A stretch of DNA of 64,000 bases, taken from NCBI RefSeq assembly GCF_012689525.1, contig NZ_CP051516.1, positions 3,224,001-3,288,000 of the forward strand, in the 5' to 3' direction. The notes under the pieces are model-generated. The model was given only the letters and a program-made list of their open reading frames with translations. It did not search any database and was not told the DNA's origin. This DNA comes from Paraburkholderia aromaticivorans. GTDB lineage: Bacteria; Pseudomonadota; Gammaproteobacteria; Burkholderiales; Burkholderiaceae. Of this stretch, positions 3,953 through 30,399 are shown piece after piece. Position numbers and translations under genes: made by a program. Each line of letters begins with the position of its first letter. Positions within the stretch are counted from its first letter, which is position 1.

Positions 3953-4393
3953 TCAGGCTAGCAGCGTGTGCGAAGCGCGTTCGGCGCTCATATTGCCGGA
4001 CCAGCGTAGATAGTCGAGCCGGCTCCAGTGCAAGCGCACGCCCACGCGCGCCGCCGCGCGAACAGCATGGGGTTTGTAAAGCGTTAGCACCGCGCTGTCG
4101 AGCACTGCAAAGTGCTCGAACGCCAACGCCAGTATGTCGGTTGCGAGCCGTTCCACGAGGTCGGTGTGCGCCTGAGCATCGAGATAGGCGCACAACATCC
4201 GGCACAACGCGTCGTAGTCGAGGCATGCATCGATATGCTCCGGCAGCGCCTCGGCCCGGCAATGCAGCACGGCATCGATCACGACGGGCTGCGGCGCACG
4301 CTCGTGGCCGTGAATGCCGACCCGCGTCTGTGCCTGCAGCGCTTCGATCACGACATCCCACTCGATCGCGGGAAGAGTTCGCATCGTATTCAT
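3953..4393 (-). CDS. FolB-like dihydroneopterin aldolase family protein
   Basis: The 146-residue product has the small T-fold layout of the dihydroneopterin aldolase/epimerase family: an N-terminal VVIEALQAQTRVGIHGHER strand pair, a central DYDALCRML segment, a VERLATDILALAF helix and a VLTLYKP strand. ATG at 4393 has GAGG eight bases upstream. It starts 28 bp after glyA and is probably in the creatinase-glyA unit. A second folate-type gene beside glyA in a creatine cluster suggests support for tetrahydrofolate needed when sarcosine oxidation releases one-carbon units. The exact reaction (aldolase, epimerase or other) cannot be told from sequence alone. Confidence 0.7.
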   Translation of the reverse strand: MNTMRTLPAIEWDVVIEALQAQTRVGIHGHERAPQPVVIDAVLHCRAEALPEHIDACLDYDALCRMLCAYLDAQAHTDLVERLATDILALAFEHFAVLDSAVLTLYKPHAVRAAARVGVRLHWSRLDYLRWSGNMSAERASHTLLA

Positions 4394-4421
4394 CGGAACC
4401 TCATCACGGTGAGGCGTGCGC

Positions 4422-5681
4422 TCAGAAGCCTGCGTACACGGGAAAGCGCGCGCATAGTTGCGAGACCTGCTCACGTACGTGGCTTTCCGTCTCTGCGTTA
4501 CCGAGGTGGTCGAGCACGTCGCAAATCAGCGTCGCCGTCAGTGCCGCTTCTGCTTCTCCGAAACCGCGCGTCGTGATCGCCGGTGTGCCGATTCGAATGC
4601 CGCTGGTCACGAACGGCGACTGCGGATCGTTCGGCACCGTGTTCTTGTTGACCGTGATATGCGCGCGACCCAGCGCGGCGTCGGCATCCTTGCCCGTGAT
4701 GCCCTTCGCGATCAGGCTCACCAGGAACAGGTGATCGTCTGTTCCGCCCGACACCACGTCATAGCCGCGTTCGTTGAATATGGTAACCATGGCGCGTGCA
4801 TTGGCGAGCGTCGCTTGCTGATAGGCCTTAAAGTCCGGCCCCGACGCTTCCTTGAACGCCACGGCCTTCGCCGCGATCACGTGCATCAGCGGGCCGCCCT
4901 GCGTGCCGGGAAACACCATCGAACTCAGCTTCTTTTCGATCGCCTCGTTGGCTTTGGCGAGGATCAGGCCGCCGCGCGGGCCGCGCAGCGTCTTGTGCGT
5001 GGTCGTCGTGACGATGTCCGCGAACGGCAACGGATTCGGATACAGGCCAGCCGCGACGAGTCCCGCCACATGCGCCATATCGACGAACAGAAGAGCGTTC
5101 ACGCGATCCGCTATTTCACGAAAACGTGCGAAGTCCAGCACGCGCGAATACGCGGAGAAACCCGCCACGATCATTTTCGGGCGATGTTCGAGTGCCAGTC
5201 GTTCGATTTCGTCATAGTCGATCAAACCGGTCCGCGGATCGACGCCGTACTGCACCGCGTTGTAGAGCTTGCCGGAGGACGACACTTTCGCGCCGTGCGT
5301 GAGGTGGCCGCCATGCGCGAGACTCATGCCGAGAATCGTGTCGCCGGGCGCGAGCAGCGCGAGATAGACCGCTGCGTTGGCCTGCGAACCGCTATGCGGC
5401 TGCACGTTCGCATAGTCGGCGCCGAAGAGTTGTTTCGCCCGCTCGATAGCCAACGACTCGACCACATCCACGTGTTCACAGCCGCCGTAATAGCGCTTGC
5501 CGGGATAGCCTTCCGCGTATTTGTTCGTGAGCACCGAACCCTGCGCTTCCATCACGCGCGGGCTCGTGTAGTTTTCCGATGCGATCAGTTCGATATGCGC
5601 TTCCTGACGCTGGCGCTCGCGGAGCATGGCGTCGGACAGGTCCGGATCGAACCCGGCGATGGTCTGTTCTTTTGAAAACAT
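4422..5681 (-). CDS. glyA: Serine hydroxymethyltransferase
   Basis: The 419-residue enzyme interconverts serine and glycine with transfer of the one-carbon unit to tetrahydrofolate. The PLP lysine is Lys230 in the TTTTHK motif, followed by the usual RGPRGG segment; length and N-terminal ELIASEN motif are standard. It lies 84 bp after the creatinase gene on the same strand. Being inside a creatine cluster, it is probably a catabolic paralogue, using 5,10-methylene-THF and glycine from sarcosine to make serine. That there is another housekeeping glyA elsewhere is assumed. Confidence 0.95.
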
Positions 5682-5765
5682 CGAGACGTCTCCTGCAACA
5701 TCATGTTTGTGCCTGCGGCCGCAGCCGCAGGATCAGATCGCGATTGGTCCGGTTCAGACTCTGAA

Positions 5766-6977
5766 TCAGGCCTTGATGATGTTGTGTTCCGGGCCGTACT
5801 TGAAACCGGTGATGTTGGTTGCGTTCTTCTCGCCGACCACGAGGATGTCGTGCTCGCGATAGCCGCCCGCACCGGGTAAACCTTGCGGCAACATGATCAT
5901 CGGTTCCATCGAAACCACCATGTTCGGTTCGAGAATCGTGTCGATGTCTTCACGCAGTTCAAGCCCTGCTTCGCGGCCGTAGTAATGCGAGAGCACGCCG
6001 AACGAATGGCCGTAGCCGAACGTGCGGTATTGCAGCAGGTTGTACTCCGCGTAGATCTTGTTCAACTCGTGGGCGATGTCGCTGCAGCGCGCGCCCGGCT
6101 TGATCAGCTTCAGGCCCGCTTCATGCACTTCGACGTTGACCTTCCACAAGCGCAGGTGCTCGTCGGAACAGTGATCGAAGAACATCGTGCGTTCGAGTGC
6201 GGTGTAATAGCCGGCGATCATCGAGAAGCAGTTCAGGCTCAAGATGTCGCCCTTTTGCACTTTGCGCGTGGTGACCGGATTGTGCGCACCGTCCGTGTTG
6301 ATGCCGGACTGGAACCACGTCCACGTGTCCATCAGTTCGGAATCGGGAAAACGTTTGGCGATTTCACGCACCATCGCTTGCGTCGAGGCCAGCGCCACTT
6401 CATGTTCGGGCACACCTTCATGCACCGCCGCCGCGAGCGCCGCGCCACCCACATCGCACACGTTCGCGCCGTGTTTGATGACTTCGATTTCCTCGGCGGA
6501 CTTGATCATGCGCATGCGCATGGTCTGCGCGCCGATGTCGACGAATTCCACCGACGGCAACGCCGCTTTGAGCTTCTCGAGCACATCTATCGGCACCTGA
6601 TCGAACTCGAGACCGACGCGTCCCTTGTTGTCGATCTCCTGCTGCACGCCGCGGAAGAAGTTGTCTCGCTGCCAGTCGGTATAGACCACGTTGTAGTCGC
6701 CGACCGTGCGACGCCACGGCTGGCCGCCGTCGATATTCGCCGAGATGGAGACCACTTTCTCCGGCGTGACGACGAGTCCGTATTTACGGCCGAACGAGCA
6801 GTACAGGAAGTCCGCGTAGTAGTTGATGTTGTGATACGACGTGAACAGCACGGCATCGATATTTTCATTCGCCATCAATGCGCGCAGCTTGCCCTGACGG
6901 TTCGCGTATTCCGCATCCGAGAAGGTGTGCTTTACCTTTTCGCCGTTCTCGATTCGAATCAGATTTTCCATTTTCAT
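5766..6977 (-). CDS. Creatinase (creatine amidinohydrolase)
   Basis: The 403-residue protein hydrolyses creatine to sarcosine and urea (EC 3.5.3.3). It has the length of P. putida creatinase and near-identical stretches, including FTSYHNINYY (46-55), MDTWTWFQSGIN (216-227) and the catalytic His232 in DGAHNPV. It has the pita-bread fold of M24 peptidases but needs no metal. The ATG at 6977 is preceded by AAGGAG; a longer upstream frame runs through the operator and is not used. It is the first gene of a unit continuing with glyA and the folB-like gene. Confidence 0.95.
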   Translation of the reverse strand: MKMENLIRIENGEKVKHTFSDAEYANRQGKLRALMANENIDAVLFTSYHNINYYADFLYCSFGRKYGLVVTPEKVVSISANIDGGQPWRRTVGDYNVVYTDWQRDNFFRGVQQEIDNKGRVGLEFDQVPIDVLEKLKAALPSVEFVDIGAQTMRMRMIKSAEEIEVIKHGANVCDVGGAALAAAVHEGVPEHEVALASTQAMVREIAKRFPDSELMDTWTWFQSGINTDGAHNPVTTRKVQKGDILSLNCFSMIAGYYTALERTMFFDHCSDEHLRLWKVNVEVHEAGLKLIKPGARCSDIAHELNKIYAEYNLLQYRTFGYGHSFGVLSHYYGREAGLELREDIDTILEPNMVVSMEPMIMLPQGLPGAGGYREHDILVVGEKNATNITGFKYGPEHNIIKA

Positions 6978-8537: not shown

Positions 8538-8542
8538 TAATC

Positions 8543-8574
<32 letters not shown>

Positions 8575-10179: not shown

Positions 10180-11244
10180 AGCGCCTCATGAAAAGTATCT
10201 CTATACTGCCGGGCCGAGCAAGAACCGCGACATAGACGATGGCCGTATTGAAACCGCTGGAACTGACGAAGGAAGAACGTAGCGAGCTTGAGGTTCTGGC
10301 GAGAAGCCGCCGTGATTGGCGAACACGAGACAGGTCCCGGACGATTCTGATGTTTAGCGACGGCGTGCCCGCCAAGGAGATAGCCAGGCGGCAAGAGTTG
10401 ACGTTGGAGGCGGTGTACGAGAGGCGCTATCGTTGGTTGGAGAAAGGCATGGCGGGGCTGTCGGACGCGCCGCGTAGCGGTGCGCCGTCGAAGCTGTCGC
10501 CGCAGCAGGTTGAGCAGTTGAAGGTGTGGGCGACGCAGGAGGCGCTGACGGCACCCGAACTGCTGGCACGACTCGAAGAATAGTTCGGGATTCGGGTTCA
10601 TCGCAATACGCTGACAGGGGTTCTCAAGCGAGCGGGGCTGGTATAGAAGCGAACCCGGCATAGCTTAAAAAAAAGCGGGACGAACAGCGGTTCCGACAAG
10701 CCCAATCTGAAATTGGGGAGTTGGTCCAGCAAGCCCAGCGTGGCGAAATCGAACTCGCCTACGTAGACGAAGCTGGCTTCGCGCAAGCGCAGCCGAATCG
10801 AAGTGCCTGGACGCCAGTCGGGGAGCAACACATGATTGACGCCCGGCGCGGTAAGCGTCTGAACGTGGTCGGAGCTCTGCTGTCCTCGGGAGGGCTGTTT
10901 GCAGTGAAGCTGTGGGAGACGATGACCTCGATGCTGTTCGCCGGATTTCTCGGCCTGCTGGTCGAATACGTCGGCAAGCCGCTGACCGTGATTCTCGACA
11001 ATGCATCGGTCCACACGGCCCGCGCACTGCAGCCTTACCTCCGGCTGCTACACGCGAAAGGCTTGACGTTGTACTTCTTGCCACCGTACAGCCCGGAGCT
11101 CAATCGCATCGAGAAGCTCTGGCACAAGATGAAATACGAGTGGCTGGCCTTCAAGGCCCGCGACACCCGAACCCTTGAGGCTGATGTCGATGTAATCCTT
11201 CAGGGATTCGGGGCAGACTACAGATTCACTTTTTGTTGAGAGCT
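10180..11244 (+). mobile_element. IS630-family insertion sequence, degraded
   Basis: Imperfect inverted ends, AGCGCCTCATGAAAAGT at the left (from 10180) and AGCTCTCAACAAAAAGT as the complement of the right end (to 11244), are flanked by the dinucleotide TA on both sides (10178-10179 and 11245-11246). TA target duplication is the hallmark of IS630/Tc1-mariner elements. The 1,065-bp size and the DDE transposase inside agree. The ends match at roughly 60% of the first 30 positions. Confidence 0.8.
10239..11239 (+). pseudogene. IS630-family transposase, interrupted
   Basis: The N-terminal part (10239-10583) has the HTH segments typical of IS630 (VPAKEIARRQELTLEAVYER). It ends at TAG 10581-10583, the same frame meets a second TAG at 10644-10646, and coding then moves to the -1 frame at a run of eight A (10667-10674). 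The C-terminal part shows the DDE core: YVDEAGF, ILDNASVHT and PPYSPELNRIEKLWHKMK. Some IS630 elements use programmed -1 frameshifting on A runs, but the two stops upstream of the A run indicate an inactive gene. Confidence 0.85.
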
Positions 11245-11304: not shown

Positions 11305-11946
11305 TTATTTGAAAACATCAGGTGTTCGCTTCCAGACATCCCACGTCACAGTCGGATCATTGGGAAACGACGCCAGAATACGCTTTTCTCCGTTTGCCTT
11401 CTGGTTTGCATTTGATTTCCAAGCCGATTCGCCAAATCTACGAACTGCATTATACAGCGTGGCGGTCTGAAGCGGTGATACACCCAGGTCGACCATCGCG
11501 AAACGAAATATCTCGTCCGCGTCTTCTCGTTTCGTATTTTGCTCCCAGTACAAGTAATCGTGAATGATAGCAGCGTAAGCATAACGTCCGTCGGGACGAA
11601 GTAAGGAATAAAAAATCGGAGGAATGCTAGCTAAATCTGTAACAAAGCCCCGAGGCGCAATAACAGTTGGATAAGGATTTTCCGACTCTGTAGAAGGACG
11701 CCAGGTGATTGGGTCCAATAGCGCATACATTGGGTCGAGAAAACGCATTAACCTAAGTGGGCCTGACACGCCCTTTGTGGCCGTCTGCATCCAACAAAGC
11801 ATCCATGGGTCTCGCTCGGAGGCTAATGTTTCTTGACAGTTCGCGCTCGGAGACTCTGAGTTTTCCGCTCTCACGACCGCGAGCTGAGAAAGCGCAAAAA
11901 TCCCCATTGACATTCTGATGAAATCGCGCCGACTATACCAAGGCAT
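11305..11946 (-). CDS. DUF1353 protein with Tat-type signal
   Basis: The product is 213 residues from ATG 11946 (GGAG 9 bases upstream; another ATG 36 bases upstream is possible). The N-terminus MPWYSRRDFIRMSMGIFALS is a twin-arginine signal followed by a hydrophobic stretch and VRA, so periplasmic export is predicted. The DUF1353 core is clear: GFVTDLASIPP, the RPDGRYAYAAIIHDYLYW block and DEIFRFAMVDLGVS. Phage and island DUF1353 proteins usually lack the signal. It is divergent from the caspase-FGE gene (160 bp apart), and both genes are exported and AT-rich, so they may belong together. Confidence 0.8.
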   Translation of the reverse strand: MPWYSRRDFIRMSMGIFALSQLAVVRAENSESPSANCQETLASERDPWMLCWMQTATKGVSGPLRLMRFLDPMYALLDPITWRPSTESENPYPTVIAPRGFVTDLASIPPIFYSLLRPDGRYAYAAIIHDYLYWEQNTKREDADEIFRFAMVDLGVSPLQTATLYNAVRRFGESAWKSNANQKANGEKRILASFPNDPTVTWDVWKRTPDVFK

Positions 11947-12106
11947 AAGCTTCTCCAGACCGGGAAATACTTGCCATAACAATCATCTATCGTATGACTG
12001 GGAATACCGTTTGAGTCGCTGACAGAAGTAAGAAAAACCCCGGTATTCGAAAGCACAAAGTAAGCTTTAGGACCATAACTGCTGACTCCGTCTCTGAGGT
12101 CATGCC

Positions 12107-13873
12107 ATGCGGAAAATCTTGGTTCTGCTTCTTATTCTTTATATGCAAGGGTCTGTCGCAGCGTCAACTTTTCTTGACCCCACGAACCCAGCCCAGCCCT
12201 CAGTTGAAGTCAGTGGCACGGAAGTCCCCCTCTACGCGGCCAGTTACGCTCTGGTTATCGGCGTCGCGAACTATCGAGTTTGGCCCACGCTTCCCAACGC
12301 AACTAAGGACGCCAAACAGCTTTCAGATACGCTTCGAAACGAAGGCTTCAAGGTCATGCTCGTTCTCGACCCAACGGGTGACGAGTTGGCTCAGGCCCTA
12401 AAGATGTTTTTTGCCAGTTATGCGCAGAGCGAAAACAATCGCCTTTTTATTTACTATTCGGGACATGGATATTCAATAAACGATATTGGCTTTCTGGTAC
12501 CGACTGATGCTCCGGATCCTGCGAACCAGCAACTCTTTCTTCAGAAAGCTCAGTCGATGTCTGCATTAGTCCGCGACTCGGCTGATTACAAAGCTCGCCA
12601 CGCAATTTATGTTTTCGATAGTTGCTTTTCCGGAGCGATTTTTTCTTCTCGTACTATGTCGGCGTCCCTCTCTCTCGATCATGCCGACTTAGCTCGTTAT
12701 TACTCTGGTCCAGCGGCGTTCCCGGTGAGGCAGTTTATCAGCGCAGGAACTGAGAAACAGACGGTTCCCCAGATCAGTCAATTCACCCCGCTACTTATTC
12801 AAGCGATCAGCGGACAAATCGATGAGCTGAACCGAGGAGGCTACATTAGCGGCAGAGACCTAGGCCTCTGGCTTTCAAGGAAGCTCTCATTGTATGTCAC
12901 TGACGAAACACCTCAAAGCGGTACCATACGAGATTCACGTTTCGACAAAGGAGACATAGTCTTCAGAGTTCCTGACACGCCTCCTAGCCCTATTAACTCT
13001 TCAGTTCATATTGCTTCGGGCGCTTCCTCGAATTCACCAATACGTCCGCAAGTCTCATTGAGTTTGCCAACAGTCGCCACGCCTCAGGATTGCGCTGTCT
13101 GTCCAGCCATGATCGAGCTGCCCGGTGGTCCCCTTGTTATCGGGTCACCTCCGGAGCAAATTGGTCATACTGCAAGTGAATCTTTAATGAATGTCTCGCT
13201 ACGCCCGTTCCAAATATCGACGAAAAAAATTACCGTTTCTGAATTCCGACGTTTCACCAACGAAACGCGGTATCAGGCAAATACAAGTTGCAAGGGACAA
13301 AATTGGCAAGATCCCGGATTCAAGCAGACCGATGATGATCCAGTTGTCTGCGTCAGCCGAGAAGACGCTTTAGCCTATATAGGATGGCTTAACTCGAAAA
13401 GTCCTACATCACCTTCATACCGCCTTCTATCTAGTACTGAGTGGGAGTTTGCCGCCAAAGGTAGAAATCATAGCATTGTTACGGATATTCGCCCTTATCG
13501 AAAAGATGAAATTTGTGCATTCGAAAATATTCTGGACGAAAAAGGAGCCGAGACCTTTTGGGGTATTAACTTCCCATGCAACGACGGATTTAAGACAACG
13601 TCTCCAGTGGGTCATTTCAAACCAAACTCGTGGGGCCTCTACGACATCATGGGAAATACTCGTGAACTCTTGGCGGATTGTTCCGCATCAAACGAAACCT
13701 TACCTAACGACGGAGTTCCGTTTGTAAATAATTTCTGTGGCTCGACTTTGGTGGCAGGAGCAAGCTTCCAGACGGACGTTCTTGATACACGGACATCGGA
13801 ACGAAAATCGATTCCACAAGGATTGGGGGCATCCGATATCGGGTTCCGGATTGCGAGAGGAGTATCAAGATGA
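12107..13873 (+). CDS. Secreted caspase-like (C14) peptidase fused to an FGE-sulfatase domain
   Basis: The protein has 588 residues. A signal peptide (1-19, cut near VAAS) precedes a caspase domain (about 43-290) with both catalytic residues: His120 in YYSGHG and Cys173 in DSCFSG. After a Ser/Pro-rich linker (290-330), a formylglycine-generating-enzyme-like (SUMF1) domain covers about 332-585, with MIELPGGPLVIGS, SSTEWEFAAKG, LYDIMGNTREL and the terminal GFRIA. ATG 12107 has GAGG seven bases upstream. The stop overlaps the next gene by ATGA. Caspase-FGE fusions are known among prokaryotic caspase homologues; an exported version on an island has no function I can assign. Confidence 0.88.
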   Translation: MRKILVLLLILYMQGSVAASTFLDPTNPAQPSVEVSGTEVPLYAASYALVIGVANYRVWPTLPNATKDAKQLSDTLRNEGFKVMLVLDPTGDELAQALKMFFASYAQSENNRLFIYYSGHGYSINDIGFLVPTDAPDPANQQLFLQKAQSMSALVRDSADYKARHAIYVFDSCFSGAIFSSRTMSASLSLDHADLARYYSGPAAFPVRQFISAGTEKQTVPQISQFTPLLIQAISGQIDELNRGGYISGRDLGLWLSRKLSLYVTDETPQSGTIRDSRFDKGDIVFRVPDTPPSPINSSVHIASGASSNSPIRPQVSLSLPTVATPQDCAVCPAMIELPGGPLVIGSPPEQIGHTASESLMNVSLRPFQISTKKITVSEFRRFTNETRYQANTSCKGQNWQDPGFKQTDDDPVVCVSREDALAYIGWLNSKSPTSPSYRLLSSTEWEFAAKGRNHSIVTDIRPYRKDEICAFENILDEKGAETFWGINFPCNDGFKTTSPVGHFKPNSWGLYDIMGNTRELLADCSASNETLPNDGVPFVNNFCGSTLVAGASFQTDVLDTRTSERKSIPQGLGASDIGFRIARGVSR

Positions 13874-14334
13874 ATCAGTCCATGCGCCACTGGCCGTATT
13901 TACTGTTAATTATACTTTCTGGGTGCGGTTCATTAACGTCAGAAAGTTCGGTAGATGGAGATAGACTTTTTTTTCCAAAAATCACCGGCACAACGGTTTG
14001 CGTAGTTCAAAACCGACAGGTTGCGATACCCGACCTTAACGATGCAATAGTTGAAACTGTCAATGAATATGGTTTTCGGGCAAGGTCAATTGCCGACGAG
14101 GAAGATATTTCTTCGGATTGCTCGCTCGCCCTGATTTATTCGGCGGATCGCGAATGGGATATTGTGCACTATCTCCGAACCGCATCTTTTCGATTATTAA
14201 AAGACGGGATTACAGTGCGCTCCATCAACTACACAGGCAGCGATGGCCTGGTCCTAGATAAATATCAATCTACCAAAAAAAGAATTGCGCCCGCGATGCG
14301 TGCACTTTTTCATGACGTGAGTCCAACCATGTGA
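13870..14334 (+). CDS. Lipoprotein of unknown function, coupled to the caspase-FGE gene
   Basis: The product has 154 residues. A short hydrophobic N-terminus ends in the lipobox LSGC, giving a lipidated Cys19. The mature part has no family I recognise: it has a VCVVQN strand, ALIYSADREWD and a C-terminal helix. It overlaps the upstream gene by four bases (ATGA), which implies translational coupling. A membrane-anchored partner or substrate of the caspase is a natural guess. Base composition is AT-rich like the two preceding genes. Confidence 0.75.
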   Translation: MNQSMRHWPYLLLIILSGCGSLTSESSVDGDRLFFPKITGTTVCVVQNRQVAIPDLNDAIVETVNEYGFRARSIADEEDISSDCSLALIYSADREWDIVHYLRTASFRLLKDGITVRSINYTGSDGLVLDKYQSTKKRIAPAMRALFHDVSPTM

Positions 14335-15028: not shown

Positions 15029-15520
15029 ATGGACATATCCGAGGGCATTCGGCGTTTGGGGATTGTCGTATTTGGCCTTGCCCTACTTATCCTGGCTGTG
15101 ACCGTGTTTTTCGCAGCTTCCGCAGCCATTGGCACTGACGTACCCGTCAATGAAATGGATGAGCCGCGACTGTACCAAGAGCAGACCGGACACGACGCAT
15201 GGGCGCAAGCGCAGACTGACTTGCACAACCTACCTCCGTCTGACAGGCTGTCGATGTACCAACGCCTATTCGGCGCCGGCAATCTGAAAATCAGCAATGA
15301 AAAAGATGTTGCCGGCTGGATGGTCGACGATGCGACAAGAAATATCTATTCGAAGATTTTGAGTGACTATTTCGCGGCACACCCGCACGCCAAAACGGTT
15401 CGTGTCCGCGATTGGCATGGGTTCCAAACAGCGTTGGTCATAGGACTAGTTATATCCGCCGCTGTAGCCGCGTTCGGTTGGATACTCCTAGGTTTCTCGG
15501 GGCGGACGTCAGAACCTTAA
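15029..15520 (+). CDS. Two-helix membrane protein of unknown function
   Basis: The product has 163 residues. Hydrophobic helices lie at about 10-32 and 131-155, with a hydrophilic region of about 95 residues between them and short tails. No family is recognised. ATG 15029 follows GGGGAACAA. The FRG-domain gene starts 36 bp after its stop on the same strand, so the two form a probable pair. A small membrane protein next to a possible effector is a layout seen in some immunity modules; here this is only context. Confidence 0.7.
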   Translation: MDISEGIRRLGIVVFGLALLILAVTVFFAASAAIGTDVPVNEMDEPRLYQEQTGHDAWAQAQTDLHNLPPSDRLSMYQRLFGAGNLKISNEKDVAGWMVDDATRNIYSKILSDYFAAHPHAKTVRVRDWHGFQTALVIGLVISAAVAAFGWILLGFSGRTSEP

Positions 15521-15556: not shown

Positions 15557-16270
15557 ATGCAAACAGAAACGATAAAAACTCTCACGCAGTTCCTTGAACA
15601 GACCGAAATGCTCGATTTGGTCACCTACCACACGTTGTTCCGGGGACAATCCCACAAGAGGAATCTGTTGCCGGGCATCGCCAGGGCTGAGCCGACAAAG
15701 GACACAACAGAACAGGAACAAGCTTTGTTAAAGACACTAGAGCGAATGGGCGCGACTAAGTTTCAGCATCGGGACTTTGACACATTGGATTTACTGGTGC
15801 TCGCACAACACTTCGGCATGAAGACGCGGCTGCTAGATTGGACCAGCAACCCTCTCGCGGCCTTGTGGTTCGCGTGCTTCAATACGGGTGATCGTGACGG
15901 ATATGTCTATGCCTTAGAGGCGGATGCCCACCTAATGCCGGACGCGTCATCCATTGATCCCTTCAAGATATCCGCGACAAAGGTGATACAACCGCGCCTT
16001 GCCAATGAGCGGATCGTGGCACAACACGGCTGGTTCACTGTGCATCGATACTCGAAAGGCTCCATGCGCTTTGTCGCTCTCGAAAACAACGCGGAAACGA
16101 AGGACAATCTGTCCGAGTTCGTGATCCCGGCGAGCAGCAAGGCGGACGTTGTCCGCGAACTGGATCGCTGCGGCATAAACGAAAGCACATTATTTCCCGA
16201 TATTGTGGGACTGTGTCGATACCTGAACTGGAAACACGAGACTAATCCGAACAGTCTCCCGAGACTTTAA
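15557..16270 (+). CDS. FRG-domain protein
   Basis: The 237-residue protein carries the name-giving motif LFRGQS (27-32) and the second conserved block AQHFGMKTRLLDWTSNPLAA (83-102). It fills the whole domain and has no extra parts. FRG proteins are common on mobile elements and near defence genes; their biochemistry is not settled as far as I know. It is paired with the two-helix membrane protein upstream. Start ATG 15557; another ATG five bases upstream is out of frame. Confidence 0.85.
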   Translation: MQTETIKTLTQFLEQTEMLDLVTYHTLFRGQSHKRNLLPGIARAEPTKDTTEQEQALLKTLERMGATKFQHRDFDTLDLLVLAQHFGMKTRLLDWTSNPLAALWFACFNTGDRDGYVYALEADAHLMPDASSIDPFKISATKVIQPRLANERIVAQHGWFTVHRYSKGSMRFVALENNAETKDNLSEFVIPASSKADVVRELDRCGINESTLFPDIVGLCRYLNWKHETNPNSLPRL

Positions 16271-16909: not shown

Positions 16910-17752
16910 CTATGTAATGTCACGCGCTTGGCACTGTACGGGGCCAATACGCATGGCCGCTTGGGCCACCAAAGCCCCCGGCGCATCCGTGGGCGCTTGC
17001 GATAGCCTATGCACGGCGGGATGTGGCCTGGCGGGTCTGTCGATGGTCGCCCGCTTTTCCGCCTCGCCGGCGCTTGCAGCATGCCGTGCCCTCTCGTCGG
17101 CCTGAATAAACTCGCCTATTCCAATATTGCGGAGTTTGAGGACTGCGGCCAACGGTACGTCCACGCCCGCCACCCCAATGGTTAGCCGGAGCGAAAGATC
17201 GTGCCACGCGTTACCGGTGGGCACTCTGTCTCGCTGTCGGTACGCGAAGCTCCTCCCGTCCAATTCCACCCGGTCCGCATAGAATTTCGTCGTGATCGTC
17301 TGCGGCACTGTCACACCTCTGCGGAGGTTATCCCGAACGATTCGGACAATGTCGGTCCCCTTCGCCAAACCGGATACTTCATAGCCGCAACTGCTGAGGA
17401 TCGGCCGCACCATACGCAGTGCATTCGCGGACAGTGGCTTACTTAGGCGGGATGGTCGAAACGGCTTGTCCAACGCCAGTTCCATGGTAAGCCGCGCGGC
17501 GATATCGGCGGCCTTACCCTTCGCTATGCTTGGCGTCTTACACACCATCTCAGCAAGAGTTGTCGGCCAGTTCTTAGAACCATCTTCGAGATACACGGTT
17601 GTTTTAACCGTCACCGCGTGCCCAGAGGTGGCGGCATCGGCCGTAGCTTCGGCCCCCGCCTTGTCCACCCTTGCCCGTACAGCCATAGCCACTTGGTCGG
17701 GGTCGTTTTGAATTGCGCGCTGAATCTCAGCGGCAAGTGTTTGTTGATCCAA
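16910..17752 (-). CDS. Hypothetical protein, 280 residues
   Basis: The frame opens with TTG at 17752 directly after a stop codon, with AGGAAC upstream; a later start is possible. The N-terminal 130 residues contain an Ala-rich region and a KTTVYLEDG strand. The middle carries TITTKFYADRVELDGRSFAYRQRDRVPTGN. No family is recognised. It stands between the tail-fibre region and the 108-residue gene. Unannotated phage structural or moron function is possible. Confidence 0.5.
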   Translation of the reverse strand: MDQQTLAAEIQRAIQNDPDQVAMAVRARVDKAGAEATADAATSGHAVTVKTTVYLEDGSKNWPTTLAEMVCKTPSIAKGKAADIAARLTMELALDKPFRPSRLSKPLSANALRMVRPILSSCGYEVSGLAKGTDIVRIVRDNLRRGVTVPQTITTKFYADRVELDGRSFAYRQRDRVPTGNAWHDLSLRLTIGVAGVDVPLAAVLKLRNIGIGEFIQADERARHAASAGEAEKRATIDRPARPHPAVHRLSQAPTDAPGALVAQAAMRIGPVQCQARDIT

Positions 17753-17895
17753 TCATGTTCCTGTTTGTTGTGGAGTCGGGCTTCCCCCCATAAAAAGCGG
17801 GAAATTCCCAAGTTATTGAACACCTACTACTTGTTCATCGTGTCTGCTAAATTGGTGCGGTACATCAATCTGGAATCTCAATTTCCGGGAAGTCT

Positions 17896-18095
17896 ATGGA
17901 ACCTGACGATACCCCCGACACACCGGACCAAGCGCCGTCCAAATCCTAGACGACGGCACGCCGGACGATCCACGCCCGCTTGTTCGCTTCTGGCTAGATG
18001 CCGATGTGGCCGAGCGCCTCCGACGCGTGCCGGATTGGGAAAATAAGTTGCGCGAAGGCTTTACCGCTGCGGTCCGTTCTGGCCGGTTCCCTTGA
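17896..18095 (+). pseudogene. Possible frameshifted small gene with BrnA-like C-terminus
   Basis: ATG 17896 opens a frame (MEPDDTPDTPDQ) that stops at 17947-17949. In the frame two bases later, coding-like sequence continues to TGA 18095: DDGTPDDPRPLVRFWLDAD, then VAERLRRVPDWENKLREGF. The LDADVAERLR segment resembles the RHH C-terminus of BrnA-like antitoxins. Opposite direction to the surrounding minus-strand genes. A single frameshift would join the two parts. It may also be chance. Confidence 0.4.
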
Positions 18096-18097
18096 CG

Positions 18098-18117
18098 GTT
18101 AGGCCGCCACATGCTCG
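18098..18117. repeat. Direct repeat, copy 1, left side of the tail-fibre cassette
   Basis: Twenty bases match 19836-19855 at 19 positions. On the minus strand both copies encode EHVA(A/V) followed by a stop; copy 2 is the very end of the gp44-like hub gene. Copy 1 ends a nine-codon ORF (MVYIEHVAA, start 18127) preceded by AAGGAAGC. The tail-fibre gene and the 59-residue gene lie exactly between the copies. Confidence 0.7.
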
Positions 18118-18229
18118 ATGTAGACCATATTGTTTGATGCTTCCTTGTGATTGGTTAGTAGCCGCTGGGGCCGCCTACCTTACATAGGGTTGTGGCCTAG
18201 TGATGATTGGCCCACGGTTGCCGGGACAG

Positions 18230-18409
18230 TTACTCCGGGTCCGGTAGGCCCAGGGTTATCGTGCCCGCCGGAAGCTGGGTCCACCACGCCTTATATCGGG
18301 CATCGGTGGCTTCGATTTCGCTTTGGTACTCCACAATGTCGGACGGTTGCGCCGACGAAAATATCCCGGTAACGGTTGTTTCCGTAGCTTCTGAAAACTG
18401 AGCAATCAT
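18230..18409 (-). CDS. 59-residue phage tail-associated protein
   Basis: ATG 18409 lies nine bases after the tail-fibre stop, and the AAGGAA ribosome-binding site overlaps that stop, so translation is probably coupled. The product ends in YKAWWTQLPAGTITLGLPDPE-like sequence and contains IVEYQSEIEATD. Small proteins directly downstream of fibre genes often help fibre assembly; this one is shorter than classic Tfa proteins and the function is inferred from position only. Confidence 0.6.
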   Translation of the reverse strand: MIAQFSEATETTVTGIFSSAQPSDIVEYQSEIEATDARYKAWWTQLPAGTITLGLPDPE

Positions 18410-18418
18410 TTTGTTTCC

Positions 18419-19729
18419 TTAGAAATCGAACGAATTAACGGAAATCGTAAATCCCGGCGTGCCCGCGCTGTTCGTCGTTTGCTGGTAGATCGTCTGTGGT
18501 GCGGTGACAGCCACACGAAACGGAATCGCAATCGAAGTACCGGCCGCAATGTTGTACGTACAGTACTGGCCGCCCATGTTGTTAATGCCCGTTGACGCTA
18601 GGGTTTGCGACATGGCGGACGCCGCAGAATTGCCAATCTGATTAAAGCCACCGACAAAGCGTGCGTTAAGCGGAATGCTCGTAGAGGTTCGCGCGGTCGG
18701 GCCACCCACAAACGTAGACCCCGTTAAGACGTTGCCTCCCGCCCAGTCAACGCGACGATCGGTTTGAGCGAACGGCGCGAACTGTCCGACCGTCGCGCTG
18801 ATAGGCGCAATGCCGATAAGCTGGCTTGCCGTGTAGCCCGGCGGGAGCGTGCCTGTGTACACCTCTTGCGCTTTGGTAGCGGTGGCGTCCGTAGCAAACG
18901 CTTTCAGCGAAACACTGGGCCCGGTTGCCGCGTAAATAGCCGCAAACCCGCTTGCGGCGGGAGTCGTCCCGACAACGCCACCAATACCGCTAACGCTGAG
19001 ATTGACCGGTACGCTAACGCCGTTGAAAAGGAAGGACAGACCGCCTAGGGCAGTTTTGATCAGCAGTTCATCAGCCGTCCACGTGGCCGTCGTACCTTGT
19101 GCGGTAAGCAACGCCGCCAAGTTCCGCGCCGTGCCTGCAATCGCCGCAACTTGTCCGAACTGGACGGCGTGTTGACTTGCAATGGCCGGGGGAACTTGCA
19201 GCGCACCCTTGCTACAGTGGTAAAGAACCCACCCGACCAGCGTGCTGTTAAACCGGATTACCGCGATACCGTTCGCGGGCATTTCGCCACCTTGGAGCGC
19301 TGAACCGGCGAGGCCGTAAATCGGGTACGTGGTGGCGGAACCATCAAGCGCGAACGTACTAGCGCCCGTGTTGGCCGTCTTGACCTTGAACGCCCGCACC
19401 ATGCCGTCGCCCGGTGCGGCAATCGTTGGCGCATAGGTTGCCGCGTACGTGTTTGCCGTGCCTGTGTCCAACGCGTAGTTGGCCCCACCCCCCTGTGCAA
19501 TCGTCTGGATCGCGGTGTAAAGCTGGTTTGTGGTCGACTTCGAGAGCGGCAAGCCCGCGCCGGTAATGGCGTTCATCAATTCCAGCATTACCGAGTTAAA
19601 GAACTCCGCCGGGACGATGGTCGCGGGGACACCCGTAGCGGGGTTACCGTCTGTGAAGTATCCCACGGTTCCCAAGGCTGTAGACGCGGGCTTGGAAGTC
19701 GCGGCGGTAGATCCATCAATTTGATACAT
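18419..19729 (-). CDS. Phage tail fibre protein
   Basis: The 436-residue protein opens with MYQIDGSTAATSKPASTALG, then GYFTDGNPATGVPATIVPAEFFN, the N-terminal pattern of tail fibres of Mu-like and P2-like Burkholderia phages. The middle is Gly/Ala/Thr-rich and low in charge; the C-terminus (about 330-436) is strand-rich and would be the receptor-binding tip. It follows the gp44-like hub gene with a 107-bp gap. No sheath, tube, tape-measure or capsid gene is present in the island. Confidence 0.85.
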   Translation of the reverse strand: MYQIDGSTAATSKPASTALGTVGYFTDGNPATGVPATIVPAEFFNSVMLELMNAITGAGLPLSKSTTNQLYTAIQTIAQGGGANYALDTGTANTYAATYAPTIAAPGDGMVRAFKVKTANTGASTFALDGSATTYPIYGLAGSALQGGEMPANGIAVIRFNSTLVGWVLYHCSKGALQVPPAIASQHAVQFGQVAAIAGTARNLAALLTAQGTTATWTADELLIKTALGGLSFLFNGVSVPVNLSVSGIGGVVGTTPAASGFAAIYAATGPSVSLKAFATDATATKAQEVYTGTLPPGYTASQLIGIAPISATVGQFAPFAQTDRRVDWAGGNVLTGSTFVGGPTARTSTSIPLNARFVGGFNQIGNSAASAMSQTLASTGINNMGGQYCTYNIAAGTSIAIPFRVAVTAPQTIYQQTTNSAGTPGFTISVNSFDF

Positions 19730-19835
19730 TAGTTATCCTTAGTTAAAAATTTAAATCGCGGGCAACGAAAGGGGAAAACAAAAACCCTGTTCAGTGGCAG
19801 GGCTTGTCGGCTTGCGCAGCGCGGGCGAGAGTTTC

Positions 19836-19855
19836 GTTAGACCGCCACATGCTCG
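19836..19855. repeat. Direct repeat, copy 2, right side of the tail-fibre cassette
   Basis: This copy overlaps the stop codon of the hub gene and matches 18098-18117 at 19 of 20 positions, in the same orientation. Recombination between the two would remove about 1.74 kb containing the fibre gene and the 59-residue gene while leaving a complete hub gene. Confidence 0.7.
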
Positions 19856-20925
19856 TCTATGAATCCGTAATTCAACTGTGCCGGCTGAACGGCGAACGCG
19901 GACGGGTCCATAAGCGTTAGTTCCGCGCTTGTTCCCTCGCCGTCCATGACATACGAAACCTCGCCAATCGTCCATTTCAGGGGTTGGTTGTTCGCGTCGG
20001 CCGGCTTCAGCGTTGGCAAATAGACCGACGCCAGCTTATTGGGCGTCCACAATGCCGACGAGGAATCAAGCCAGCTATCTACGCGCACACGTGCCACCTT
20101 GGAGCGACCGGCGCGGCGGTTCATCTCCCAAGCAACGCGCTTCGACAACATGTCTTTGTATCCATTGGCCGCCTCCGCGATCACGAACTTTTTGCGGTTT
20201 CGTAGCACGGTGGCATCTGCGGCGACGGCAAACGAATTAGGAGCATCGAAACTGTTTCCGATACGGCTCATAGCGTTGAGCCATCCGATGTACGTTGAGT
20301 ACCGCTGATCCATCGAGTATTCGACAGAGCCGGCCGTAACGTTTTGCCCTTCAAATAATCCCGACGCGTGTTCCTCCGTGCCGACTCGAGACATCACTAA
20401 ATGCCCGCTCACGCCCTCATACGCCAGGAGGCCGCTGTACTTGCAAATCCGGTCGATAACCTCAAACGCAGTTTCGCCTAACATGATGTTGAATTGCGGG
20501 ACGGTAACGTCACTGGTTTCCGGCGGGTCCACGAGAATGTCGTACGCGCTCGCCAAGTTAGACGCAATCACGAACGCCGTGGCCGCGCTGATTTGACTCG
20601 TCTCCCACTCAGCGGAGCAATCCACCAAGTCTTGACATTTGCCCCGGCCGGTAACGCGGATCGAATGACCCTCCGGGCCGAAGCTGGGGACGTACTTGTC
20701 GACGTATCCCGTTAGGACGGTTTGGCTGCCGATCATGATTACGCACGGGTCGCCGGGGGTTACCACTACCGCCGGTGCCTCGCTAGGGAACAGTTCGGTT
20801 AGATCTAACTCGAAATCGCTTGGTAGCCGCTCGATCCCGCGCGTAATGCGAACCTCCGTCCAACCGGCGATTTCCTGGTTAATCAAAACCAGCTTTACCG
20901 TGGTGTCGGTTGTTGAGATTGTCAT
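19837..20925 (-). CDS. Mu gp44-like / GPD-type phage baseplate hub protein
   Basis: The 362-residue protein has the layout of the Mu gp44/P2 gpD tail-hub family: EIAGWTEVRITRGIERLPSDF near the N-terminus, then PGDPCVIMIGSQTVLTGYVDKYVP and the VTGRGKCQDLVDCSAEW block (about 93-109). A second beta domain follows, then the RAGRSKVARVRVDSW region. It overlaps the upstream gene by four bases (ATGA). In Mu this gene is followed by gp45-gp48; those are absent and the tail fibre follows directly. Confidence 0.85.
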   Translation of the reverse strand: MTISTTDTTVKLVLINQEIAGWTEVRITRGIERLPSDFELDLTELFPSEAPAVVVTPGDPCVIMIGSQTVLTGYVDKYVPSFGPEGHSIRVTGRGKCQDLVDCSAEWETSQISAATAFVIASNLASAYDILVDPPETSDVTVPQFNIMLGETAFEVIDRICKYSGLLAYEGVSGHLVMSRVGTEEHASGLFEGQNVTAGSVEYSMDQRYSTYIGWLNAMSRIGNSFDAPNSFAVAADATVLRNRKKFVIAEAANGYKDMLSKRVAWEMNRRAGRSKVARVRVDSWLDSSSALWTPNKLASVYLPTLKPADANNQPLKWTIGEVSYVMDGEGTSAELTLMDPSAFAVQPAQLNYGFIDEHVAV

Positions 20926-22712: not shown

Positions 22713-23312
22713 AAGGTTCCCTCTTTGGTAATACCGCCAGTTAAATGAACTGGACCGGATGCCACACCATCGCGGCGTTACCGATCCATACACAAGCATA
22801 GGAACAACAAAAATGTTCCGTTTTTCATTGGTTTAGCTCCGTAGTTAGTGAAGAACTTTCCGCCATTGGAAAGCCCTTTACGAACCAGGTTCGCTGTCTC
22901 TTTCGTAGCTGCACATCGGACCGCGACGACCTCAACACCCGCCGCTACCGCTCACTACGTCTCGACCCTGACAAAGGGGCCGGGTCCGCGCCAAGTTGTT
23001 AAAGATCAAGTTCCTTCGTCCCGGTCGTCTTGCCGGAAGGGATGCCGCGCATCGGCGGATTGCGTCCGCCCGTCAATTACTGTCGGGCTACGTATTGCTG
23101 TGCCCTCACATAGATCAGGACTGTAGCGGAGCGCAAACCCTCTGCGCAAGTCTTTTTTATAAAAAACCCTGACATCGGGGGACGCAATAGCTTACTGTAG
23201 CCCTAGGCTGGCAAGCATCTCTCCCGCGAGCCCGAGGTTTTTTGTAAAATGTCCCTGCGTTTAGGGGTCAGCACGTAGACTGTGCCTCATTGGCAGATTG
23301 CGAGGGCGAACC
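22713..23312. other. 600-bp non-coding stretch between two divergent units
   Basis: It must contain the promoter of the RHH-tail unit (minus) and that of the recombinase-like gene (plus). AT-rich patches lie at 22785-22845 and 23150-23170 (TTTTTTATAAAAAA). No gene, tRNA or clear repeat is visible. Phage operators or an origin would be expected in such a position but none can be pointed to. Confidence 0.45.
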
Positions 23313-24263
23313 GTGAGTTCGATAACAACCACATACGGAAGGGACGGAAAACCCCGGTTTCGGGTCCGCGTCAAGTACAAGGGTGAAGTACGCTCAAAAA
23401 CGTTTCACACCAGCGAGGCGGACGCTCAAGCATGGGCCGATCAACAACTAGAAGAAATGAAAAGTACAGATATCGTTGTGGGTGCGCCGGCACCCCTCAC
23501 CATCGGTGTCCTGATCCAGGAATTTTTGAGAGACTTTCCGGAATACGACCGAGCCCTCGTCGACGCGGCCAACACACTTTCTCACCTGACACCGGACCGG
23601 GTTTCCGCCGAACTCGTACTGGCCACCTTTCCCGACATGGGACAAGAGGCGGTCTTTCTGGAATACGTCGTGGAGTGGGGCCGACACAATGGTGTGTTCG
23701 TGAAGCAAAACCCTGTAGCCGCCGCGCGTAGAGTGTTCGATAAACTACCCTATCGCCCCGTAGCAGATTTTGAAATGGAACTGTTTGTAGCCAAAGCACG
23801 AGCGAACGACGAACACGAATACCTTGCTGCTTTCCTGTCGTTGATTATGGACGGCGCGCTAAAGCAAGTTGAGGCGCTTCGTATCCGTCGCCAGCATATT
23901 GACCTGCACGAGGGGCAACTCAAATTCGACGGAAGATGCGTCCCATTGAATCCAGAAACAATCGCGCTGCTTAACGCTAGGATGGCGCTCGTGGATTCTG
24001 ATGAGTTGTTTAGTAATGTGACGGTAAAGCAGTCCAAAAGTCGTTTGTCCGACTACTGCAAATTTCTTGGGATCGACGAGGTGAAATTTCCCGATCTTCG
24101 TCGAGAAGGCGCGTACCGGCTCTGTTTGCGATACGGTTCCGCTCGCGCGTGGGCGATGCTCGGCAACCCGTCCACTGCTAATTCCGCGTGGATGATCGTT
24201 GCGGCGGAGCGGAACCGACGCCTTGTCGAGGCCTTAGGCCCTCTCCCGGACTTCTCTGTATAG
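23313..24263 (+). CDS. Degenerate tyrosine-recombinase-like protein
   Basis: The protein is 316 residues from GTG 23313 (GAGGG six bases upstream; a TTG at 23298 is also in frame). The N-terminus has the Arm-domain pattern of phage integrases (TYGRDGKPRFRVRVKYKGE, then a SEADAQAWADQQ helix). In the catalytic half the boxes are altered: MDGALKQVEALR has Lys-Gln where the catalytic Arg is expected, FPDLRREGAYRL has Pro in place of the His of HxxR, and no Tyr follows at the end (NPSTANSAWMIV). It probably binds DNA without cutting it, as an accessory or regulatory protein. Confidence 0.7.
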   Translation: MSSITTTYGRDGKPRFRVRVKYKGEVRSKTFHTSEADAQAWADQQLEEMKSTDIVVGAPAPLTIGVLIQEFLRDFPEYDRALVDAANTLSHLTPDRVSAELVLATFPDMGQEAVFLEYVVEWGRHNGVFVKQNPVAAARRVFDKLPYRPVADFEMELFVAKARANDEHEYLAAFLSLIMDGALKQVEALRIRRQHIDLHEGQLKFDGRCVPLNPETIALLNARMALVDSDELFSNVTVKQSKSRLSDYCKFLGIDEVKFPDLRREGAYRLCLRYGSARAWAMLGNPSTANSAWMIVAAERNRRLVEALGPLPDFSV

Positions 24264-24693: not shown

Positions 24694-26565
24694 TTACTTT
24701 GTAATTCCGGAGAGGCCGGCAATGATAAAAGAGCCCAATATCCACCCAGTCAATTTGTGAAAATAGAAATAGTAACGAACTGGCCCATGAATATCTATTT
24801 TATAATGCATTTCTCGGAGGCGTATTATCGGCAAAAACATATCGAAACTATATGCGAGGCCCCATTTGAAATGAAATCGTGCGGCCTCGGCGGTGGTGCG
24901 AAAAACGAGCGCTCCAACTACGACAAAAAGACCGGTCACTACGATTGCGCGCCCTGTAAAATAACCGAAACCGATGGTCCATTCCGATAGCCGCATGACC
25001 CAGCATTGAAAGATATCATCCGACGAACAAACCTGCTCCAACTCTTTGGTCTTTCCGGCATACCCGACCTCGACGGCCGCATCGTGCTCGTTCTGAGCTT
25101 CGAGCATAGAGGTTACTTCTCGATACGACTGAGGGGAAAAGTCGTCCTTAGTTGCTCTGCCTAACCAGTCAGGGAAAAAAATCTCTGGCGACTCGCTCTC
25201 CCAATTATTGGCATCGAAGTTTTTATGGCACAATAAATGTATAAAGTGACAAACGGCAGCGTCTATTTTGGAGAAAAGAGAATAATCAGTGTGCGGTAGC
25301 GCGCAATTTTGATTGTCTTTTTTGCAGGGTGGTGGCATCAGATAGTCGCCGTGAAATCCATCAATTGATACCCCAGAGAAAGAAATGCGTTTCGGCCAAT
25401 ATTCGTTATTTTGCGGCGCTCGAATATAGGAAATCTTGGCATTTGAAAAATCGAGCTGCGAGTTACCTTGCCAAGTTGTAATCATTTGCGATGCTTTGAA
25501 TGCGTATTTATTGTAGCCAAAGGAAAATTCGCCATTGATTGATGCTCCCGCAAGATCAAGCGAGCGTAGAGATGTGCCGCTGATACTTAAGGTTTCTTGA
25601 ATTGACGCCGACTCTAGCATTATCGAATCCGCCACGGCAGATCGATTAACGAGTAATCCGTGTCCCGCCCTTAGTTGAAACAGATTAATCGTCGCAAGAT
25701 GTTCCTGCTGCGCCCGAGGGCCCTCGGTATAAGCGGTAGTTGGTAAGCAGTTTGTGCACTCGTTGCTGGCGGTATTGCTAAGAGAGAATGTAGATTCAAT
25801 TATTCCAAACTGTCCATCAACCTCCGTTGCGGGCGCGTTCAGCTCCGTGCTTTTGACGCTTTCTATGTCGAGCATACCCTTGATACGCGAGTATGGAATA
25901 TAAATTCGATTATTTATATTTGCTCCGACGATAGTTAGGTTCCCGCCGATATCCAAAAATGACGCCTCGATCCCCCCAATGTTCACGATATTTTTTGGGG
26001 CATTAGCGGCATGTGCGTCGTCTTTGTCGTCCGATCCCAATATTAGTGAGCCATCGATTTTTGCGCGTCTTGCTTGGAATATTTCCCTTATTTGCGATCC
26101 AGAGAGCGATATGGTGCCCAATAATCTCGAATCATTCAATTCTATGCGGCCGTTAAACATGCAGTTGTTTAGAAAAACCGACGGCGCAATAGTGCGGTCG
26201 CTGAGATTTAGATCGCCAATAACAACGGCTCCATTGACACGTATTCCGGTCTGGGCAAGAATGTCGACAAAAGGTTTGCGCGTGAGAATAGTTGAAAGCA
26301 TGGAACCTCTAACTCGGGGTTTCATGGTTCGCAAGCTGTAATTTGCCGCGCCTGACGCGCACACGCTAGCCCACAGCTCCCGTTCAGATTTGGACCAAGT
26401 TGAGTCGCCGCCAGGGCATGTGACTTCGTCCTGAGACACACTCGCAAATACGACAGAAGGTTGGCTCAGAATAAATGCTGAAAAAAGGAGCGCGAGCCAT
26501 GCACGCGCCTGTCGATAGCCACTGGGCCTCGAGATCTCCGTGACTTCGCGGTGGTTACTGCACAT
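24694..26565 (-). CDS. Exported beta-helix (pentapeptide-like) protein with C-terminal membrane helices
   Basis: The protein has 623 residues. A signal-like hydrophobic segment (about 20-42) is followed by about 300 residues of short repeats resembling quadrilateral beta-helix coils: SVFLNNCMFNGRIELNDSRL, ISGTSLRSLDLAGASINGEF and similar. A Cys-containing globular part lies at about 400-520, and two hydrophobic helices at about 530-556 and 605-621. It is AT-rich compared with its neighbours and stands alone. Membrane-bound pentapeptide-like proteins are found widely; no role is established that I can name. Confidence 0.7.
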   Translation of the reverse strand: MCSNHREVTEISRPSGYRQARAWLALLFSAFILSQPSVVFASVSQDEVTCPGGDSTWSKSERELWASVCASGAANYSLRTMKPRVRGSMLSTILTRKPFVDILAQTGIRVNGAVVIGDLNLSDRTIAPSVFLNNCMFNGRIELNDSRLLGTISLSGSQIREIFQARRAKIDGSLILGSDDKDDAHAANAPKNIVNIGGIEASFLDIGGNLTIVGANINNRIYIPYSRIKGMLDIESVKSTELNAPATEVDGQFGIIESTFSLSNTASNECTNCLPTTAYTEGPRAQQEHLATINLFQLRAGHGLLVNRSAVADSIMLESASIQETLSISGTSLRSLDLAGASINGEFSFGYNKYAFKASQMITTWQGNSQLDFSNAKISYIRAPQNNEYWPKRISFSGVSIDGFHGDYLMPPPCKKDNQNCALPHTDYSLFSKIDAAVCHFIHLLCHKNFDANNWESESPEIFFPDWLGRATKDDFSPQSYREVTSMLEAQNEHDAAVEVGYAGKTKELEQVCSSDDIFQCWVMRLSEWTIGFGYFTGRAIVVTGLFVVVGALVFRTTAEAARFHFKWGLAYSFDMFLPIIRLREMHYKIDIHGPVRYYFYFHKLTGWILGSFIIAGLSGITK

Positions 26566-30312: not shown

Positions 30313-30321
30313 CACGTTATA

Positions 30322-30399
<78 letters not shown>

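Follow-up and report, generated by a model that had tools for sequence, protein, structure and literature searches.

A 64,000-nt stretch of Paraburkholderia aromaticivorans DNA (contig NZ_CP051516.1, positions 3,224,001 to 3,288,000; hereafter the window) carries, within an element at a tRNA-Pro gene, three adjoining genes that encode a caspase-family protease with an FGE-like domain (caspase-FGE), a small lipoprotein and, in divergent orientation, a DUF1353 protein with a twin-arginine (Tat) motif. An initial annotation had proposed that the three are linked and exported. We find that caspase and long-form DUF1353 genes very probably form a recurrent pair, and that export of all three proteins is supported as a prediction from their N-termini.

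The caspase-FGE protein matches Pfam Peptidase_C14 (PF00656) at residues 47-177 (E 2.2e-17; 64 bits, cut-off 21.4) and FGE-sulfatase (PF03781) at residues 332-584 (E 8.5e-40; 137.4 bits, cut-off 23.3), and its catalytic dyad, His120 within SGHG and Cys173 within DSCFSG, is intact as first annotated, with no substitution across an eight-row caspase alignment. The proposed signal peptide is supported by the N-terminus, MRKILVLLLILYMQGSVAAS, which is signal-like and of Sec type (top 10-residue mean hydropathy, 3.28), and by hydrophobic N-terminal segments, judged by eye, in relatives P0003-P0008. The protein is thus predicted to be a Sec-exported orthocaspase with a C-terminal PvdO/FGE-like domain. 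Its best match among PDB sequences is PvdO (5hha; 4.3e-27), with the MALT1 paracaspase at 1.3e-11; the PvdO equivalog model gives 126.8 bits, below its cut-off of 500. Human FGE has a catalytic cysteine pair near its C-terminus, and the final Cys of caspase-FGE is residue 544 of 588, a position given without alignment to the FGE active site. The nearest of 1,506 related proteins (E <= 1e-3, from 8,000 candidates scored) are 46-50% identical to caspase-FGE across 94-95% of its length. Across 143 other genomes of the genus we find no full-length match at E <= 1e-15, and eight of these genomes match the FGE part only. A diversity-generating retroelement was considered and rejected, as the 3' end of the FGE region is unrepeated at window positions 7000-31000; no reverse transcriptase search was made.

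The DUF1353 gene has a probable ATG start (Met13) at 11946, which places it 160 bp from caspase-FGE, as initially annotated, or 124 bp when counted from the TTG. Its product matches PF07087 (E 2.3e-23; 82 bits, cut-off 22.5) and carries the twin-arginine motif SRRDFI. Phospholipase A2 activity was demonstrated in 2024 for a member of this family, TtaP, whose catalytic residues are H70, D71 and D85 (PMC11525133). H141, D142 and D156 of the window protein correspond to these residues and are invariant among 85 aligned long-form DUF1353 proteins, and the phospholipases A2 4aup and 8k1w come first in a list of candidate folds; a DUF1353 profile finds no match among PDB sequences (best E 0.67). Phospholipase activity is likely.

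Long-form DUF1353 loci were collected by a DUF1353 search blind to caspases. The genome sets searched, which overlap, comprised 300 from the order, 378 from the phylum, 146 from a single genus judged to be Bradyrhizobium and 209 from the order to which that genus belongs; 72,556 plasmids and IMG/VR were searched as well. This yields 16 long-form genes other than that of the window, excluding L079 (a duplicate record of the L071 plasmid), L081 (the L061 contig), L160 (the same as L076) and the matches to the DUF1353 core only (L065/L067, L069, L070, L077 and L078). Seventeen plasmid records match, six of them, from five plasmids, with long forms; two of the other 11 were inspected. A caspase is the immediate neighbour at eight of the 16 (L061, L071, L072, L073, L168, L169, L171 and the first gene of L172). 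None is found at L066, L074, L075, L080 (where one side ends with the contig), L170, the second gene of L172 or the frame-broken L173, the last two being scored as misses, nor, by profile, at the core-only loci L067, L069, L070 and L077. At L076 the caspase's place is taken by an exported trypsin-like protease (3964-5715; PF13365 4e-19) that lies 12 bp before the Tat-DUF1353 gene.

As controls we used 78 IMG/VR loci (L082-L159), the remainder of the best 80 of 562 confirmed matches, some of them near-duplicates, whose DUF1353 open reading frames (ORFs) are mostly of the short phage type (median 130 aa, range 117-228). By profile, a caspase adjoins DUF1353 at none of the 78, as against 8/16 long-form loci (Fisher p 1.2e-7). 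Five controls (L082, L083, L085, L096 and L101) extend into the C-terminal part of the long-form model and lack its N-terminal helix; counting them as long forms gives 8/21 vs 0/73 (p 2e-6); collapsing the similar pairs L072, L073 and L171 into one gives 6/14 (p 4e-6). The p-values take no account of relatedness, and phage contigs make an imperfect control. Four of the eight positive loci are represented among the 54 training sequences of the caspase profile, and all eight caspases are also C14 by Pfam. The adjacency expected by chance is approximately 0.44%, from six Bradyrhizobium-type genomes with 13-21 caspases each and an assumed one gene per 1.08 kb, and in Bradyrhizobium four of eight long DUF1353 genes lie beside a caspase (binomial p 3e-8). 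The 10.8-Mb genome of the window holds a single DUF1353 gene and two C14 genes, and the DUF1353 gene adjoins one of the two.

Predicted compartments agree in all nine pairs, the window included. In five (window, L061, L071, L168 and L169) a Tat motif on DUF1353 is accompanied by a hydrophobic export segment on the caspase, the segment at L061 and L168 coming after an internal start; in the other four (L072, L073, L171 and L172, the last with uncertain starts) neither protein has an export signal, and the two proteins seem to switch compartment jointly. The caspases differ in their additional parts, which comprise FGE in the window, OmpA at L168, a sub-threshold Y_Y_Y match at L061 and, by eye, a long propeller-like N-terminus at L071 and membrane helices at L072 and L073, so that the effector is constant and the accessory domains of the protease vary. 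Because half of the long-form loci and none of the controls are paired, at a chance expectation near 0.4% and with compartments matched throughout, we regard a caspase with a DUF1353 phospholipase as very probably a real gene pair.

The lipoprotein fares differently. Its start shares 4 bp (ATGA) with the caspase-FGE stop, as the initial annotation had it, and its lipobox Cys19 is invariant across a 14-row alignment. It scores 66.5 bits against the Sbal_3080 family (NF040519), under the curated cut-off of 80; it matches one PHROG of unknown function, and a viral scan with it as query returns no relatives. Its predicted model resembles the outer-membrane export lipoproteins PelC and CsgG. A search by tblastn and caspase profile finds no caspase within 1.5 kb of its homologues at 14 loci in 13 other genomes, and we therefore dropped it as a conserved partner: of the three-gene link first proposed, the caspase-DUF1353 part is met again at other loci and the lipoprotein part is not. 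In the window locus only, the lipoprotein could act as an outer-membrane anchor or sensor.

The three genes lie in a 21.8-kb element (8540-30353) flanked by 35-nt direct repeats at tRNA-Pro, which contains an integrase, a prophage tail remnant and insertion-sequence parts.

Features of the window discussed in the text (coordinates are window positions)
Feature	Position	Strand	Evidence or detail
Caspase-FGE ORF	12107-13873	+	588 aa; PF00656 and PF03781 (Pfam), PDB relatives, dyad positions
DUF1353 ORF, Tat-type, predicted phospholipase A2	11305-11982	-	H141, D142, D156
Lipoprotein ORF	13870-14334	+	154 aa; Sbal_3080-like; PelC/CsgG/TolB-like model
Attachment (att) repeat, far element end	8540-8574	.	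35 nt, 97% identical to tRNA copy; repeat search
att repeat at tRNA-Pro(ggg) 3' end	30319-30353	.	35 nt; repeat search
Tyrosine integrase of element, beside tRNA	28754-30283	-	PF00589 5e-11, phrog_1 9.4e-23
Prophage tail remnant: tail-fibre-like ORF and GpP-type baseplate hub	18419-20925	-	phrog_1858, phrog_177, PF21683
FRG-domain protein, candidate defence family PDC-S15	15557-16270	+	PF08867 3.1e-20; PADLOC PDLC04938 5.2e-88

The caspase-FGE, lipoprotein and DUF1353 genes have G+C (GC) contents of 48.8, 48.8 and 45.2%, so that the AT-rich composition first remarked on holds; its singularity does not, as the whole element (54.4%) is AT-richer than the window to its right (62.9%) and other element genes are low too, e.g., 47.5% at 24694-26565. 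With att repeats, an integrase and prophage and insertion-sequence parts around it, and with full-length caspase-FGE unmatched in the genus genomes searched, the set looks like acquired cargo. That its members are unrelated cargo genes, neighbours by chance, would fit an element of such mixed make-up and the unconserved lipoprotein link, and is highly improbable given the pairing at half of the other loci and the matched compartments, counts that already disfavour it. A reading in which the set is part of the prophage remnant and works in envelope remodelling, lysis timing or superinfection exclusion, with a phospholipase akin to phage DUF1353, is distinctly unlikely. The att-bounded element does have tail genes, the lipoprotein matches a PHROG, and short DUF1353 proteins are common among phages, one such family being labelled 'tail assembly chaperone' in PHROGs. 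However, seven of the eight other pairs are on plasmids or bacterial genome contigs and one is on an IMG/VR contig, the IMG/VR controls lack the caspase, and the 11 of 50,697 phage records that match caspase-FGE do so within FGE alone. No relatives come up in viral scans with the caspase query or with the caspase alignment, and no other phage structural gene is found among ten element ORFs scanned (Pfam/PHROGs).

The element also holds a second, weaker integrase-like ORF (23298-24263; phrog_1 8.9e-10), an IS630-like transposase in two frames (10239-11239; helix-turn-helix part and DDE_3 part) between a SEC-C ORF and DUF1353, and a gene for a small membrane-type protein (15029-15520; PDGLE match below threshold) that immediately precedes the FRG gene. 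A 623-aa ORF on the minus strand (24694-26565) has a signal-like N-terminus by eye and no match in Pfam, PHROG or PDB sequences.

The genes and their domains, the export-type N-termini, the catalytic residues, the recurrence of the pair and its matching predicted compartments are all read from sequence; from them we infer an interaction between caspase and DUF1353, and with it a direction of activation, a cut site, a trigger and a role in defence. The Sec-exported caspase would detect a trigger, probably via its C-terminal FGE/C-type-lectin-like domain, and would cleave the Tat-exported DUF1353 phospholipase A2, releasing it from an N-terminal restraint, a Trp/Met helix (residues 59-67) that a flexible linker with a conserved Lys/Arg (K70) ties to the core. 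The freed phospholipase would then hydrolyse envelope phospholipids and leave the cell permeable, most likely a suicide response to phage or another invader. An extracytoplasmic protease-phospholipase pair of this kind, in which the caspase activates DUF1353 and envelope damage ends in suicide, is as a whole our best explanation, held at even confidence. The same balance applies to activation by cleavage, the leading mechanism, and anti-phage suicide is the leading role with somewhat less assurance. Because DUF1353 is a phospholipase A2 family, self-killing from the periplasm, one of the roles suggested in the initial annotation, becomes a specific, testable mechanism.

Residue 70 is Lys or Arg in 72 of 82 long DUF1353 sequences, and K70 falls in a variable linker, modelled at low confidence, that joins the Trp/Met helix to the phospholipase core. 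The basic residue lies one column earlier at L073 and L171 and is absent from this region at L066, a locus with no caspase; at the trypsin-paired L076, position 70 is Glu, with Arg two residues upstream. Trypsins cut after basic residues. Orthocaspases cleave after basic residues as well (PMC6426788), and K70 is a candidate activation cut, no more: basic residues are no less frequent at positions 80, 195, 200, 201 and 218. The converse of the pairing is weak, in that most caspases in the Bradyrhizobium-type genomes have no adjoining DUF1353 and two other relatives of the window caspase, at L022 and L062, have none in the flanks fetched, which makes the pairing a property of long DUF1353 genes and not of caspases generally.

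The other conserved basic residues would also suit a role in lipid homeostasis, in which the caspase would hold back or eliminate the phospholipase, or the two would be housekeeping enzymes of the envelope, and nothing would be killed; the available text of PMC11525133 reports no envelope difference on TtaP deletion and discusses cell-associated roles. We consider this improbable, since a patchy spread, frequent mobile DNA and a trypsin in the caspase's place at L076 appear typical of conflict systems. Somewhat more credible, and still unlikely, is a secreted weapon, with both proteins leaving the cell together to strike competitors or hosts and the phospholipase being matured by the caspase once outside. 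The route would be Tat plus type II secretion, which is known for some phospholipases. The export-type N-termini of both proteins, the PelC/CsgG-like lipoprotein model, a phage-lysozyme-domain ORF beside the L072 pair and an annotated alpha/beta hydrolase beside that of L071 would all be in keeping with such a weapon. Four of nine pairs, however, look signal-less, a better fit to self-directed action; no secretion genes were noticed beside the pair, and several loci adjoin defence genes.

Suicide in defence is consistent with those neighbours, which were scanned by choice and not by systematic survey: L066 adjoins a full Gabija pair (GajA 2.7e-235, GajB 9.6e-188), an HsdR-like type I restriction protein is near L170, a SIR2 protein near L075 and an Abi protein near L074, and the window element has its FRG protein, of a candidate defence family. 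The ATPase beside the core-only L077 has no PADLOC match.

Other ORFs at these loci are recorded as side observations. L066 has an ORF (4291-5055) with an HExxH-like motif by eye and no Pfam match; at L061 a CotH-kinase-domain protein (4595-6052) lies upstream of the pair, with lipase/hydrolase-like ORFs, by eye, farther upstream. The L172 DUF1353 (17305-18402) beside the signal-less caspase has a long N-terminal addition with, by eye only, the look of an effector-associated domain. A GH25 lysozyme-annotated ORF on a Rhizobium lusitanum plasmid (L062, 9771-11855) matches the caspase profile at 44.6 bits near another caspase gene and is a possible lysozyme-caspase fusion. At L080 the long DUF1353 lies at the contig end with an OLD-type ATPase and Zot-like and secretin-like ORFs, filamentous-phage-like by eye.

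Parts of this system have precedents. TtaP belongs to the same Pfam family and has the same catalytic His/Asp/Asp spacing (15 residues), but is 125 aa long with no overt export signal, whereas the window protein exceeds it in length, carries a Tat motif and conserved extensions at both ends, and is encoded beside a caspase; PMC11525133 mentions that DUF1353 is, rarely, fused to 'several different protease domains', and the one DUF1353 paper whose text was searched for 'caspase' does not contain the word. PvdO (5hha) shares the FGE-like domain, which in the window is fused to a caspase. Metacaspase-FGE proteins, on record since 2012 (33 of 671 sequences; PMC3501461), have the same two-domain fusion, with no partner phospholipase and no 'DUF1353' in the text available. 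In CARD-NLR and bacterial gasdermin systems a protease likewise adjoins a membrane-attacking effector; some CARD-NLR systems use phospholipases in place of gasdermins (PMC13236601), and protease-plus-phospholipase is accordingly not new as an idea. Their protease is, however, trypsin-like and comes with an NLR-type ATPase; neither such an ATPase nor a gasdermin was noticed at the window locus, and the window pair would work from the periplasm. The available text does not mention 'DUF1353' or state whether the CARD-NLR phospholipases belong to it. No gasdermin is among the Pfam matches of the window ORFs scanned; no search aimed at gasdermins was made.

The closest tested precedent for the activation model is Canu, the CanABC system of K. 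aerogenes, in which a caspase switches on a pro-nuclease and protects against phage T4 (PMC12799240). There too a bacterial caspase-family, MALT1-like protease is encoded with a cell-damaging enzyme, with transposases and defence genes nearby. The Canu effector is a metallo-β-lactamase (MBL)-type pro-nuclease, for which the neighbouring window ORFs scanned give no Pfam match, whereas the window effector is a predicted DUF1353 phospholipase and both window proteins are predicted to be exported; 'phospholipase' and 'periplasm' are absent from the available Canu text, and neither there nor in that of PMC13236601 is the periplasm mentioned for caspase or gasdermin defence. The pair thereby joins two separate recent discoveries, the assignment of DUF1353 to the phospholipases A2 (2024) and bacterial caspases that activate cell-damaging enzymes (2025), and, being small and having clear catalytic mutants, is directly testable. 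If our explanation is true, bacteria have a caspase-controlled membrane-lysing enzyme besides gasdermins, one version of which is periplasmic. More tentatively, we envisage an immune or suicide system outside the cytoplasm, in which a caspase in the periplasm would switch on a phospholipase A2 of the same compartment, the latter being an enzymatic equivalent of gasdermin. Rhizobia would have a parallel cytosolic branch, a trypsin would drive another branch, and the swappable domains of the caspase (FGE, OmpA, propeller-like, membrane) would be the sensors. By analogy, the caspase-DUF1353 pair is like the gasdermin-protease and Canu pairs; its effector differs from theirs, and one version of it is predicted to be extracytoplasmic.
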